Origin: Desulfuromonadales bacterium
GTDB lineage: Bacteria; Desulfobacterota; Desulfuromonadia; Geobacterales; Pseudopelobacteraceae
NCBI GenBank assembly: GCA_016650295.1
Contig: JAENWA010000068.1
Coordinates: 1 to 64,000, forward strand
Direction of reading: 5' to 3'
Length of the DNA stretch: 64,000 bases
Part shown: piece by piece, positions 3,693 through 10,745 of the stretch
How positions within the stretch are numbered: position 1 is the stretch's first letter
Layout: every line of letters starts with the position of its first letter
Position numbers and translations under genes: made by a program
Notes under the pieces: model-generated
The model's input: the letters and a program-made list of their open reading frames with translations, nothing else
Database searches by the model: none
What the model was told of the DNA's origin: nothing

Positions 3693-3793
3693 TGCGCACC
3701 TCCGGAACATTCTTTATGACACATTTAACCATGCGGTAAAGAGTGTTGTCAATAGTGTTGTAATGATCGGCATGGAGCGTGGGGTTTCAAAGG

Positions 3794-4273
3794 ATGATGA
3801 ATGAATTATGAAGTATGAGTTTCAGAATTCATAGAGATTGAACAGCTAACTATGGTGACCGCTTGTTCATGGTTTGTATTTTTCAAAGACCTCGGCAGTA
3901 GAAACAGAACCTATCTCCCCGGTCTTGTACCCTTCCCAGCGACGGGAAGATTCCTCGGCCCAAAGTTTTTCAATCTCAGCGTCAGGCATATCAAGGGATT
4001 CAAGGAGATAGTCAACAAGTTGAAGTTTGTCCAGCGAAGGAAGGCTGGTGGCCTCGCGGATGAGTGGATTGTTACGGTCAATCATGTAAGCACCTCATCT
4101 TGGTTCAATCTTGCTGAAACAGTACCACATGGGAAAAAGAGTGACAAGGGTTTGTAATATCCTGTTTTGTTTGCTAATAGGCGATTGCTCCCTATTCAGG
4201 CCCCAGTCACCAGACCAAACATGGTGGCCGGTGAAGTTCGAGTTTCATACTTCATAATTCATCCTTCATCATT
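3794..4273. repeat. Inverted heptad-type repeats flanking an orphan antitoxin gene
   Basis: Two inverted copies of a repeat built from 7-base TGAANNA-like units bracket the gene at 3867-4085. The left copy (about 3794-3819) contains TGAATTATGAAGTATGA; the right copy (about 4242-4273) contains the exact 17-base reverse complement and continues with more units. A third, hairpin-forming copy lies at 13599-13652. This is seen directly; calling the bracketed segment a mobile cassette would be inference. Confidence 0.65.
3867..4085 (-). CDS. Addiction module antitoxin (Unstab_antitox-like), without partner
   Basis: A 72-residue protein: MIDRNNPLIREATSLPSLDK, then LQLVDYLLESLDMPDAEIEKLW and a C-terminal RRWEGYKTGEIGSVS. 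This matches the short 'putative addiction module component' family (PF09720), in which the loop WEGYKTGE usually precedes an active-site mimic and which is normally encoded just before a RelE/ParE toxin. Here the 150 bases downstream (3866 to about 3711) carry no toxin reading frame, so the gene appears to be an orphan. The ATG at 4085 has a GAGGTG ribosome site six bases upstream. It could be a neutralised remnant or act on a toxin elsewhere. Confidence 0.72.
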   Translation of the reverse strand: MIDRNNPLIREATSLPSLDKLQLVDYLLESLDMPDAEIEKLWAEESSRRWEGYKTGEIGSVSTAEVFEKYKP

Positions 4274-4438: not shown

Positions 4439-5425
4439 TTACAATCGCCAACGTTTTCGGTGTTCTGCCAGATACTCCCTGGCCGGCCAGATGGCCTCAT
4501 CCTGTGGTGGAAGAATCCCTCGCCCGGACAAGGTCTGCAGGGGACCGGCAAAGTTCGGAACCATGCTGATCGAGCTTGAAGTAATGACCGTGTAACTGTC
4601 GGAAACACCCAGCATTCCCCAATCAAATCCCCAGTGACAGAGCTTGCAAAGCGCCATACCGTTGCGGATGTCGTCATTCATCGATTCTCTCCACGGGATG
4701 ATATGGGCCGCATCGACAGCCGTATAACCATCCGGTGTGACAATGCGGATACCGCACATGGCGCAGCGATGGTCATAGGTATTGACGACAATCTTGCGGA
4801 AGCCTTGATCACGAGCAGCAGGACGGTAATTATCCGCCTCAAGGATTTCCTTTACCAGTGGCAGATGTGATTTTTCCTCCAACAGGCGGCTGTAGTCGAA
4901 TGCCTCACGGTTGATGACCGATTGGTCACGCAATTGAACACAGGCATCTTCGGAAAAACACGATTGCAGAAGTGTCTCCCGCAGTGCTTCACGCCCCTCG
5001 GGTATCTGCATGATGCGGAACAGGTCCTCATCCATCCTTGCGCCAAGGGCATATTTGCGGAGGAAGCTTACCGATGTGGTGTTGCCGATCAATGCCGGAG
5101 TTATGGTACATCCCGGCTGCGGTACCAGTTCCCAGAACGGTTCACTGTTCAGACGTGGAAAAGGGAAGGCAATACTGCTGGTCTGCCCCAAGGGCATGAC
5201 ACGCCGCCAGTAGAGGTTGAACAGGTCGTTCAGTTCTATCAGATCCCCGGTGACTTCGATGAATGAAGAGGTAATGACACCGCGAGCCACCAGATCCAGC
5301 ACGGCCAGCAGTAAAATCGGTTTGTGCGGGGCCTTCTTTTGCGTCGTACCGCAATAATGCCCCTGCCGTGCATTGGCCCGACGCAGATGGGCGAACTGAT
5401 GGATGTAGGTTGCAAGCTCGGTCAT
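4439..5425 (-). CDS. HNH endonuclease with phosphorothioate-reader-like (SBD/ScoMcrA-type) N-terminal domain
   Basis: A 328-residue nuclease of probable restriction function. The N-terminal half begins MTELATYIHQFAHLRRA and contains KKAPHKPILLLAVLDLV (about 31-47), a signature of the sulfur-binding-domain family that recognises phosphorothioated DNA in ScoMcrA-like enzymes. The C-terminal part is an HNH domain: CAMCG at 221-225, DAAHIIPW with His241, RNGMALCKLCH with Asn255, Cys260, Cys263 and His264; the four cysteines likely bind structural zinc. Its ATG overlaps the stop of the HIT fusion gene (ATGA, 5422-5425), so it is expressed with it. No dnd genes for making phosphorothioates are in the window, so the likely target is foreign modified DNA. 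The N-terminal assignment rests on one motif. Confidence 0.75.
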   Translation of the reverse strand: MTELATYIHQFAHLRRANARQGHYCGTTQKKAPHKPILLLAVLDLVARGVITSSFIEVTGDLIELNDLFNLYWRRVMPLGQTSSIAFPFPRLNSEPFWELVPQPGCTITPALIGNTTSVSFLRKYALGARMDEDLFRIMQIPEGREALRETLLQSCFSEDACVQLRDQSVINREAFDYSRLLEEKSHLPLVKEILEADNYRPAARDQGFRKIVVNTYDHRCAMCGIRIVTPDGYTAVDAAHIIPWRESMNDDIRNGMALCKLCHWGFDWGMLGVSDSYTVITSSSISMVPNFAGPLQTLSGRGILPPQDEAIWPAREYLAEHRKRWRL

Positions 5426-6594
5426 AGTTGTTTCCAGTATGGCGCCTTCTCGGGCTTGATCCAGCGCACCCCGCCGCGTGGGTCAGTCGTGTCACCGACA
5501 TATCGCGGGATCAGATGTATATGCAGGTGCATAACCGTCTGGCCGGCGGCCGCACCGTCATTGATGCCAATGTTGAAACCGTCGGGTACCGCTTCTACTC
5601 CCCCCTTTAAGAAAGGGGGGTTGGGGGGGATTTGACTCCTCCCTTTCGCAAAGGGAGGCTGGGAGGGATTCAGCAGTAGCAGACGCATCTCCGCCAAAAG
5701 ATCAAGCATGGCTGCCTGTTCTTCCCTGGTGGCCTCGAAGAACGAAGTGATGTGGCGTTTGGGGATGATAAGAGTGTGGCCGGGGGTGACGGGGTAGTTG
5801 TCGTACACTGCCTGAGCGTGGTCGTTGGACGCAATGATGCTGGTGGGGTTGAGGTTGCAGAATGGGCAGGTTGGCTGAATCACTACGTCCTCGTTCGAAA
5901 TGACTACAATCTGAGAATGCCACTGCTGTGCAAGTTTCTCATTGGCATCCCGAAAGTGGTCAAGATGTTCCGGTCTGGCCAGAAGAAAGAACACCACGTG
6001 AGAAGTGACATAGGCAAAGATCGTTGCGCCTGTTTCCGCCGTGGCTTTTTCGGAAATTTTCCGAATAAATTGTTTTCGCTTAACCCGCTGGAAGTGCTGG
6101 TAAATCAGAACGGAATGGCCGGACTCATACGCAGTTACCACTTCATCCCAATACAGATATTTTGAGGAGCCTTTTGTTCCTTTGCGACTGGATGACACCT
6201 CCAGGCCGTTGTCAGGATCGAAAAAGAGAAGTCCGCCGTTGCGAGGAAGGTTGTGAAATAACTCTTTGAAATATTCTGCTCGGAGTTCAGCGGCATCTTG
6301 AAGAAATTGGAAGAAGAAGCGAGTGCCGGGAAGAAGCCCGCCAAGAGTGCTTTCATTGATCACTCGGGCGTTTTGTTGAATTTCATCTTGCAGAAAGTCA
6401 AAGAGATCCGGGTCAAAGTGACGCCAGATTTTAGGGTTGGAGAGGTACGATAGTTTCTTACCGTCCGTGTTCCCAGACATGTCCGGTGTGAGCATCCAAC
6501 AGAGGTACGTTGGCAGTAATCCTACACCATTCAAGGCCCTGATAAGGCCATATTTCCGGTAGTCGTTGATATCACCGAAGTATTGATGTTTCAT
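5422..6594 (-). CDS. Fusion protein: unknown N-terminal domain plus HIT-family nucleotide hydrolase/transferase domain
   Basis: The protein has 390 residues in two parts. Residues 1-235 (start MKHQYFGDINDYRKYGLIRA) belong to a widespread unnamed family; visible conserved-looking motifs are GLLFFDPDNGLE (121-132) and GSSKYLYWDEV (142-152), suggesting a Rossmann-like enzyme fold, but no function can be named. Residues 242-390 are a HIT domain: CPFC at 243-246, HTLIIPKRH at 273-281 and the catalytic histidine triad HLHIH at 356-360, followed by GGVRWIKPEKAPYW. HIT proteins cleave or transfer nucleotide phosphates via His-AMP intermediates. Between about residues 306 and 336 lies a low-complexity insertion made by a palindromic DNA repeat. 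It overlaps the HNH gene by 4 bases and follows mcrBC. Confidence 0.8.
   Translation of the reverse strand: MKHQYFGDINDYRKYGLIRALNGVGLLPTYLCWMLTPDMSGNTDGKKLSYLSNPKIWRHFDPDLFDFLQDEIQQNARVINESTLGGLLPGTRFFFQFLQDAAELRAEYFKELFHNLPRNGGLLFFDPDNGLEVSSSRKGTKGSSKYLYWDEVVTAYESGHSVLIYQHFQRVKRKQFIRKISEKATAETGATIFAYVTSHVVFFLLARPEHLDHFRDANEKLAQQWHSQIVVISNEDVVIQPTCPFCNLNPTSIIASNDHAQAVYDNYPVTPGHTLIIPKRHITSFFEATREEQAAMLDLLAEMRLLLLNPSQPPFAKGRSQIPPNPPFLKGGVEAVPDGFNIGINDGAAAGQTVMHLHIHLIPRYVGDTTDPRGGVRWIKPEKAPYWKQL
5600..5675. repeat. Two tandem 38-base palindromic repeat units inserted in frame in the HIT domain
   Basis: Unit 1 (5600-5637) and unit 2 (5638-5675) each start with a 21-base palindrome of the form C/T-rich arm, TTT-NNN-AAA, G-rich arm, followed by a G-rich tail. 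Palindromes are at 5600-5620 and 5638-5658. In the protein they encode QPPFAKGRSQIP and NPPFLKGG, placed between the helix LLAEMRLLL and DGFNIGIN, where HIT proteins normally have only a short loop. The frame stays open. Confidence 0.85.
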
Positions 6595-6628
6595 GTTGTC
6601 ATTCTCTCAGCTGGTCATAAATCATGGG

Positions 6629-6853
6629 CTAATCACCATATTCAAAGCCTGACCCGGCAGGGGGCTTCAGGATGAGAATGCCACGTTGGGAATGTAGAAT
6701 AATAGAATCAGGATGGAGTCGGGAAGTACCGATGGGGACGTTGTACCAGCAGAGGTAGTCGTCTTCCAGCTTTGCCTCAAGCAATCGGGCAAAGCGGCGC
6801 TCGCCGGGGGTGTCGAATTTGCAGGTGGTTATGCTGGGGATGAGTGTGGACAT
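6629..6853 (-). pseudogene. Truncated N-terminus of a NERD-domain (UvrD-helicase-type) protein
   Basis: The 74 codons from the ATG at 6853 read MSTLIPSITTCKFDTPGERR and continue FARLLEAKLEDDYLCWYNVP, then LHPDSIILHSQRGILIL. This matches the opening of large helicases that carry an N-terminal nuclease-related domain (NERD), where one expects a catalytic E-V-K motif after GLLVLE. Here the frame leaves the family at KPPAGSGFEYGD and stops, so neither the nuclease core nor the helicase is present. It begins 23 bases after the mcrC stop and ends 34 bases before the HIT fusion, so the original operon probably contained a complete helicase gene. The family assignment is from memory of the motif. Confidence 0.6.
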
Positions 6854-6875
6854 TAATATGTTATCCAAATTAGCT

Positions 6876-8006
6876 TTACTGAACACAGTTAGGAATTTCA
6901 ATGGCTTTCAATAGTTGAGTACGAATAATGTCAGAACTAGCTGCAAGGTCAATAGTTGCAAATCTGATATTATGCCCTTGGATTACTACAGACTCGTCAA
7001 CCATTTCACCAATCGATGGATGCAAGAGCAATCCTGAGGCATGTTCGGCTAAAGGGTCACCATTCCCGACTTGGGATCTGAGGTAGGCATAAATTTGATA
7101 AATATACCCACTTCGCAAGGACTCTTCCCGATACCATCCTTTCGTTACAATCGAAGTAAATTTTGTGTCGATAACAATCCGCTGCCCACTTTCTTTGTGA
7201 TTCAAGATAACATCTGTACGCATCGATGGCAGAATTTTGTCAATTCCTGACGTTTTTTCTTCGATTAGCCAGTCAAGACATTTCCCCGGCTCAACACGCC
7301 AACCGTTTTGTGTCAGTGCTACATCATAAAACCCTGCTACCGCTTTTTCATAAAGACGTCTAACCCATGAAATCTCTCGATCCGGCAGAGCCAAGAGCTT
7401 GCTTCCAAGTGATTCGGTAGGTAACGCTAAATCAAATGCAAGCTTCGCCACCGTAATCATTAACTGATCATCCGAATCGTGATGACCAAATCGATCCGTA
7501 CTCATTACCGATCGACTAGGCTTTTCCCCAGTAACTCCAATCTGCTTCAGAGTGCTCGCTTGTGACAGGCAGCGGCGTGCTAATTCTGGTCGCTTGACGA
7601 TTTTAGATATAGATTCAAGAGCTACTCTAACGAAACAATTTCGAGGGGTGTTAATAGTTAAGTCTTCGAATCGGCACGCAACTCTACCGCGTTCGAGCAG
7701 TTGATGCCGTTCAGTTATAAGATGGTCAATCTTTCCTCTGACGCGGCCTAATTCAGCGGAACGAAGCCTATAACCAAAACTCAGGTTCCTCATAAGTCTG
7801 CGTTCAACAACACGAACAAGGAACTCCGCTATAAGATCTGGAATTTCGTCAGGGTTATTTTCTACATCAATTTTTGTCCTGTCTATGTGCCTAAACAGCT
7901 CAGAAGCGTACAGCATCAAAAGCCACATATTTCGGACAGGAATCCGACCAATATAGTTCACGTTGTCTTGGTCTTCAGATTTTTTCGATGCCGTTTCCAA
8001 ACCCAT
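6876..8006 (-). CDS. mcrC: McrC-type nuclease subunit of a modification-dependent restriction system
   Basis: The 376-residue partner of McrB. McrC stimulates the McrB GTPase and provides the PD-(D/E)xK cleavage site. The N-terminal part (NYIGRIPVRNMWLLMLYASE, about 17-36) is typical of the McrC family, as is GRVRGKID (88-94). The catalytic core is read as Glu220 (RLYEKAV), Asp265 in SMRTDVIL, and Asp280-Thr-Lys282 in IVIDTKF, followed by YIYQIYAYLR with the QxxxY-like element. It starts two bases after the mcrB stop, so the two are coupled. A 23-base gap then leads to the broken NERD gene. Confidence 0.93.
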   Translation of the reverse strand: MGLETASKKSEDQDNVNYIGRIPVRNMWLLMLYASELFRHIDRTKIDVENNPDEIPDLIAEFLVRVVERRLMRNLSFGYRLRSAELGRVRGKIDHLITERHQLLERGRVACRFEDLTINTPRNCFVRVALESISKIVKRPELARRCLSQASTLKQIGVTGEKPSRSVMSTDRFGHHDSDDQLMITVAKLAFDLALPTESLGSKLLALPDREISWVRRLYEKAVAGFYDVALTQNGWRVEPGKCLDWLIEEKTSGIDKILPSMRTDVILNHKESGQRIVIDTKFTSIVTKGWYREESLRSGYIYQIYAYLRSQVGNGDPLAEHASGLLLHPSIGEMVDESVVIQGHNIRFATIDLAASSDIIRTQLLKAIEIPNCVQ

Positions 8007-10658: not shown

Positions 10659-10745
10659 TATTCTTTGTTGTTATATTCTGTATCCCTACCACGAATCCGG
10701 CTCATATACCATGAACGCTAAACGGTGAACGCTAAACGGTAAACG

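Follow-up and report, generated by a model that had tools for sequence, protein, structure and literature searches.

A tandem palindromic repeat coding in frame within the HIT domain of a Geobacterales protein

REPINs and BIMEs are inverted pairs of REPs whose movement is attributed to RAYT transposases. Intragenic REPs, palindromes of 20-40 bp, lie singly or as dimers inside the ORFs of several species (Di Nocera, De Gregorio, Rocco 2013, PMC3733652). Dimers and groups of REPs often encode 20-30 residues, with uvr genes among the targets, and sometimes the same REP site is found in related genes, as in recB of two Xanthomonas (PMC3733652). The same paper recalls the RPEs of Rickettsia, palindromic repeats that sit in frame in genes likely encoding functional proteins; of these, RPE-4 and RPE-6 are described as REP-like and RPE-1 as longer than both. 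A repeat family of Geobacter bemidjiensis also sits in genes without frameshifts (PMC2996986).

We analysed a 64-kb stretch of DNA, here called the window, in which a repeat dimer interrupts a gene for a HIT domain protein. Like the intragenic REPs, the dimer consists of short palindromes that code inside an ORF, and UvrB is also hit by the window family. With the Rickettsia RPEs it shares insertion in frame, in a different phylum, and this likeness, which the original prediction had pointed out, holds up as an analogy, which is as far as the claim goes: the repeat is dispersed, is absent from most orthologues and lies in frame elsewhere. The multicopy sequences of G. bemidjiensis and G. metallireducens (PMC2996986, PMC2700814) belong to related bacteria; compared by description, they may or may not be the window element, and the intragenic G. 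metallireducens family, with the consensus GGACCGG, is not. The case clearly exemplifies a phenomenon that is known, though little noticed, and is not a new system.

A repeat dimer inside a HIT domain

The features of the locus are as follows.

5422-6594, minus strand: gene carrying the insert, a 390-aa ORF of the ORF list in which a HIT domain is fused to an unassigned N-terminal domain (residues 1-233)
5425-5889, minus strand: HIT domain, residues 236-390 (Pfam PF01230, E 1.4e-20)
5515-5529, minus strand: histidine triad HLHIH, residues 356-360, intact (invariant columns H121, H123 and H125 of the HIT alignment)
5587-5670, minus strand: codons of the inserted peptide NPSQPPFAKGRSQIPPNPPFLKGGVEAV, delimited by alignments and turn-length comparison with orthologues
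5600-5637, plus strand: repeat unit 1, palindrome CCCCCCTTT-AAG-AAAGGGGGG (5600-5620) followed by the tail TTGGGGGGGATTTG
5638-5675, plus strand: repeat unit 2, head-to-tail with unit 1, palindrome CCTCCCTTT-CGC-AAAGGGAGG (5638-5658) followed by the tail CTGGGAGGGATT

The two tandem 38-base units with 21-base palindromes that had been predicted at 5600-5675 were confirmed. Each palindrome (CCCCCCTTTAAGAAAGGGGGG at 5600-5620 and CCTCCCTTTCGCAAAGGGAGG at 5638-5658) spans 21 nt with a perfect 9-bp stem and a 3-nt loop, and the two are set in a 38-nt register. TRF, which is independent of the palindrome calls, reported 5597-5670 with a period of 38, 1.9 copies and 80% matches; the pair escaped find_repeats at its default settings. 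The whole window contains only three perfect hairpins with a 9-bp stem and a 3-nt loop, two of them in the HIT gene; dinucleotide shuffles of the window gave a mean of 0.17 and a maximum of 1. Chance palindromes were ruled out by these shuffles together with the family search described below. At 3790-3818, 4244-4273 and 10712-10745 the window has short arrays whose 7- or 14-bp units recall the heptanucleotide repeat families described for Geobacter.

The insert was also expected to lie in frame in the HIT domain, before the triad strand, with the HIT motifs intact, and both expectations were borne out. The 390-aa ORF is open, the Pfam HIT match (residues 249-365, E 1.4e-20) flanks the insert on either side, and in the alignment with relatives HLHIHLIPRY and the remaining invariant positions are unaltered; the protein thus combines a Pfam HIT match with an HxHxH triad. 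Its HIT part is 63-73% identical to standalone orthologues. The inserted residues (about 309-336) occupy the turn between a helix ending in LLAEMRLLLL and the strand PDGFNIGIND. Relative to the usual turn of 8 codons the net gain is 72 nt, or 24 codons. Two 38-nt units make 76 nt, which is not a multiple of three, and the frame depends also on the junction bases. The source genome is a 123-contig draft, and an indel in a homopolymer run of the C-rich insert is possible.

For the N-terminal domain (~233 residues) a Pfam search gave no match; it occurs as a standalone protein at three loci (L023, L024 and L031), and relatives have a standalone HIT domain too. At the junction of the two domains a GTG is preceded by a GAGGA stretch, and the HIT part may also be translated separately. 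The neighbourhood (4439-8006) is of restriction type, with an HNH endonuclease gene on one side and a weak NERD match and a McrBC-component gene on the other. PADLOC reported a weak match to ThsC2, a HIT family member.

A dispersed repeat family and its other target genes

The two units are members of a REP-like family whose copies are scattered over genomes of the order, a group of soil and sediment bacteria, and beyond. The strict core CCCCCTTTNNNAAAGGGGG was found in 85 of the 138 genomes of the order, at up to 99 copies per genome, and the reversed-pattern control gave zero everywhere except in the source genome (1). Across a sample of the phylum the core was present in 100 of 395 genomes, with as many as 202 copies; in this sample the reversed pattern appears instead in a few genomes belonging to one family. 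The distribution across genomes is patchy. In the source genome itself the strict palindrome has just three exact matches. With a covariance model derived from 15 copies, 12 distinct sites were identified there at E<1e-7, plus further decayed ones, these copy numbers being search results; the absence of any other copy in the genome, which would have counted against the original prediction, was therefore not what we found.

The 140 distinct copies from relatives fell into two subtypes. The consensus of type A is tCCCCCCTTTnnnAAAGGGGGG-nnn-GGGGG(G)ATTTG and that of type B is aagTCCCCCTTTnnnAAAGGGGG-ATTTA-GGGGGATTTG. Unit 1 fits the type A consensus drawn from 64 oriented copies of relatives, and both window units are of type A and lie on its consensus, unit 2 with a CTCCC stem variant. 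After the stem, type A has a variable sequence and type B has ATTTA, with GTAG in single copies (e.g., L003). A GTAG or CGTC tag defines the intragenic REP families of PMC3733652, whereas the window units carry neither; beside the stem, in place of GTAG, both have other bases (TTGG and CTGG). In the broad sense of a 20-40 bp palindrome present in many copies per genome, the family is REP-like.

Copies of types A and B often face each other in inverted orientation with about 66 bp between them. In this the family resembles REPINs and BIMEs, and Y1 transposase genes are present in the source genome and in relatives. Unlike a REPIN, whose unit is an inverted REP pair, the window dimer is head-to-tail, and the family showed no clear tie to a RAYT gene: the repeat lay near none of the nine Y1 loci of the source genome and near 3 of 30 in relatives, all three in two copy-rich genomes. 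Head-to-tail dimers of the window spacing are very rare, with only one or two comparable cases elsewhere in the 138 genomes. One locus of the source genome, L015 (G000:C82, ~1703-1781), holds an inverted repeat pair flanked by longer inverted repeats (TTAATTCTACTTTGTC...GACAAAGTAGAATTAA) and is MITE-like. A search for plasmid carriage gave no match, and literature on the encoded peptide or the core sequence yielded nothing relevant.

The element lies in frame in several unrelated conserved genes and most orthologues lack it, which makes it a protein-coding palindromic element as a phenomenon, as in Rickettsia. It occurs in MurG of three genomes (L064, L065 and L174), at one interdomain site with differing inserted peptides, in UvrB of two genomes, in NuoL of two genomes, in LexA at a point between its DNA-binding domain and its peptidase domain, and in an MsbA-like exporter between the membrane and nucleotide-binding domains. 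The insert-bearing MurG, UvrB, LexA and NuoL proteins tested still exceed the curated NCBIfam cut-offs. The MurG interdomain site is a further candidate for a recurrent site. Most in-frame copies in other genes sit between domains; the HIT copy sits in a catalytic domain and not in a linker, and so does a copy of the source genome (L005, G000:C43:44266-44303, KLEKQIPPSPPLQSGEHNQ), which lies in a large acyltransferase/synthetase-like protein, in its AMP-binding domain. These genes offer natural insertion sites (MurG, UvrB, LexA, NuoL and HIT) at which the acceptance of new sequence by loops could be tested. The case also carries a warning for annotation: where these bacteria have PPFxKGG-type segments, a repeat is their likely source.

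Not every copy keeps the frame. A near-consensus copy in the source genome (L004, G000:C19:18199-18237) splits cbiD into two reading frames, and the N-terminal part of cbiD, used as a query, had a single match in that genome. The broken cbiD is a contrast, within one genome, to the tolerated HIT insert. Since this copy breaks the frame and others are in frame, insertion is not frame-preserving by itself, and selection is most likely the filter. Copies of the repeat are open in 4.4 of six frames, compared with 3.9 in composition shuffles and 4.1 in random window segments, and the case for a special pre-adaptation of the repeat to coding is correspondingly weak. The split cbiD also contains other repeat-like coding segments (TPLRSG and LIPHPSSL).

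Orthologues, reading frames and the origin of the insert

We compared the turn among 93 bacterial and archaeal HIT relatives. Its length is nearly constant, being longer in eight distinct Geobacterales proteins and in L206, and solved HIT structures align through it without insertion. Most orthologous HIT domains lack the insert, and none was found that encodes the same peptide by non-repetitive DNA, the other outcome that would have refuted the original prediction. In two relatives, L022 (identical to L179) and L025, the site of the insert is occupied by the same tandem dimer, starting AAATCCCTCCCAACCTCCCTTTCTGAAAGGGAGGAG, in another reading frame, so that their peptide is KSLPTSLSEREE where the window has NPSQPPFAKGRS. 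In alignment, the window differs from these two by 2 nt at the 5' border and by 1 nt at the 3' border, and the two differences jointly restore the frame. The second palindrome has decayed in L022. In a further protein, L029, there is one decayed unit; this protein is sister to one with a short turn, and its unit seems to have been inserted independently.

A clade of the window protein with L022 and L025 was neither supported nor rejected by the tree (p-AU 0.073). Because head-to-tail dimers of such spacing are very rare, the shared dimer points to a single insertion, after which indels compensated each other; given the lack of support for the clade, the dimer may instead have been inserted independently at one hot spot. 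A single clade of all long-turn proteins was rejected (p-AU 0.002), and longer turns therefore arose more than once. Within the HIT core, dN/dS between the window and L022 and L025 was 0.09-0.11 (NG86, with dS near or at saturation in several pairs), which shows purifying selection on the core. Taken together, the orthologue, frame and dN/dS comparisons say that the HIT enzyme is maintained, but not the sequence of the peptide.

We consider it probable, at about 0.85, that the insert is a tolerated dimer of a REP-like, presumably non-autonomous repeat, filtered for frame and situated in a surface turn, with a peptide that is not a functional module. A head-to-tail dimer would have landed in the turn between the helix and the beta strand ahead of the histidine triad, mobilised perhaps by a Y1 (RAYT-type) transposase or by some other activity. 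It would have survived because its net 72 nt, a multiple of three, keep the frame, because that frame has no stops and because the turn is on the surface. The protein would then be made, the peptide would fold as a loop without a specific role, and the enzyme would stay active.

Four other explanations were weighed. The palindromes may act on RNA or DNA, through mRNA stability, transcription attenuation or protein binding, with the coding effect incidental. The transcript strand of the insert folds at -30.6 kcal/mol, REPs are thought to work as RNA elements (PMC3733652), and multicopy repeats of Geobacter have been proposed as regulator sites (PMC2700814). Against shuffles, however, the folding z-score is a modest -1.9, the Rfam search of the insert found no family at threshold, and palindromes have decayed in L022 (the second unit) and in L029; we regard such a role as unlikely. 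That the peptide is a selected functional module, such as a docking segment rich in proline or a part that regulates HIT dimerisation or substrate access, would suit the repeated origin of extra turn residues in several Geobacterales lineages, many of them proline-rich. This explanation is distinctly unlikely, as the window and L022/L025 read the same DNA in different frames to give unrelated peptides, the insert is missing from most orthologues, the same element occurs in unrelated proteins, and L022 does without its second palindrome. We find it highly unlikely that the gene is a decaying pseudogene whose frame is open by chance: the assembly is a draft, a family copy has broken cbiD in the same genome and the element tends to be open in most frames in any case, but the gene retains 390 open codons with intact HIT motifs, and its core evolves at a dN/dS of ~0.1 relative to the two insert-bearing relatives. 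A chance local expansion of a C/G-rich proline- and glycine-coding turn, with no mobile repeat involved, would accord with the low-complexity composition and the scarcity of exact matches in the source genome, but was refuted by the family search, in which sequence, tail and loop matched a dispersed family with zero or near-zero controls and both units fell on its consensus.

The tolerated dimer offers a comparative example of a mobile non-coding repeat that becomes protein, in two frames among relatives and within a catalytic domain. A more far-reaching reading, which we hold only tentatively and think somewhat doubtful, is that in Geobacterales the turn of this HIT family serves as a recurrent landing site, where a mobile palindromic repeat has time and again become coding sequence and where compensating indels can switch the frame of the insert. 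If so, one repeat could yield several unrelated new peptides at one position of a protein.
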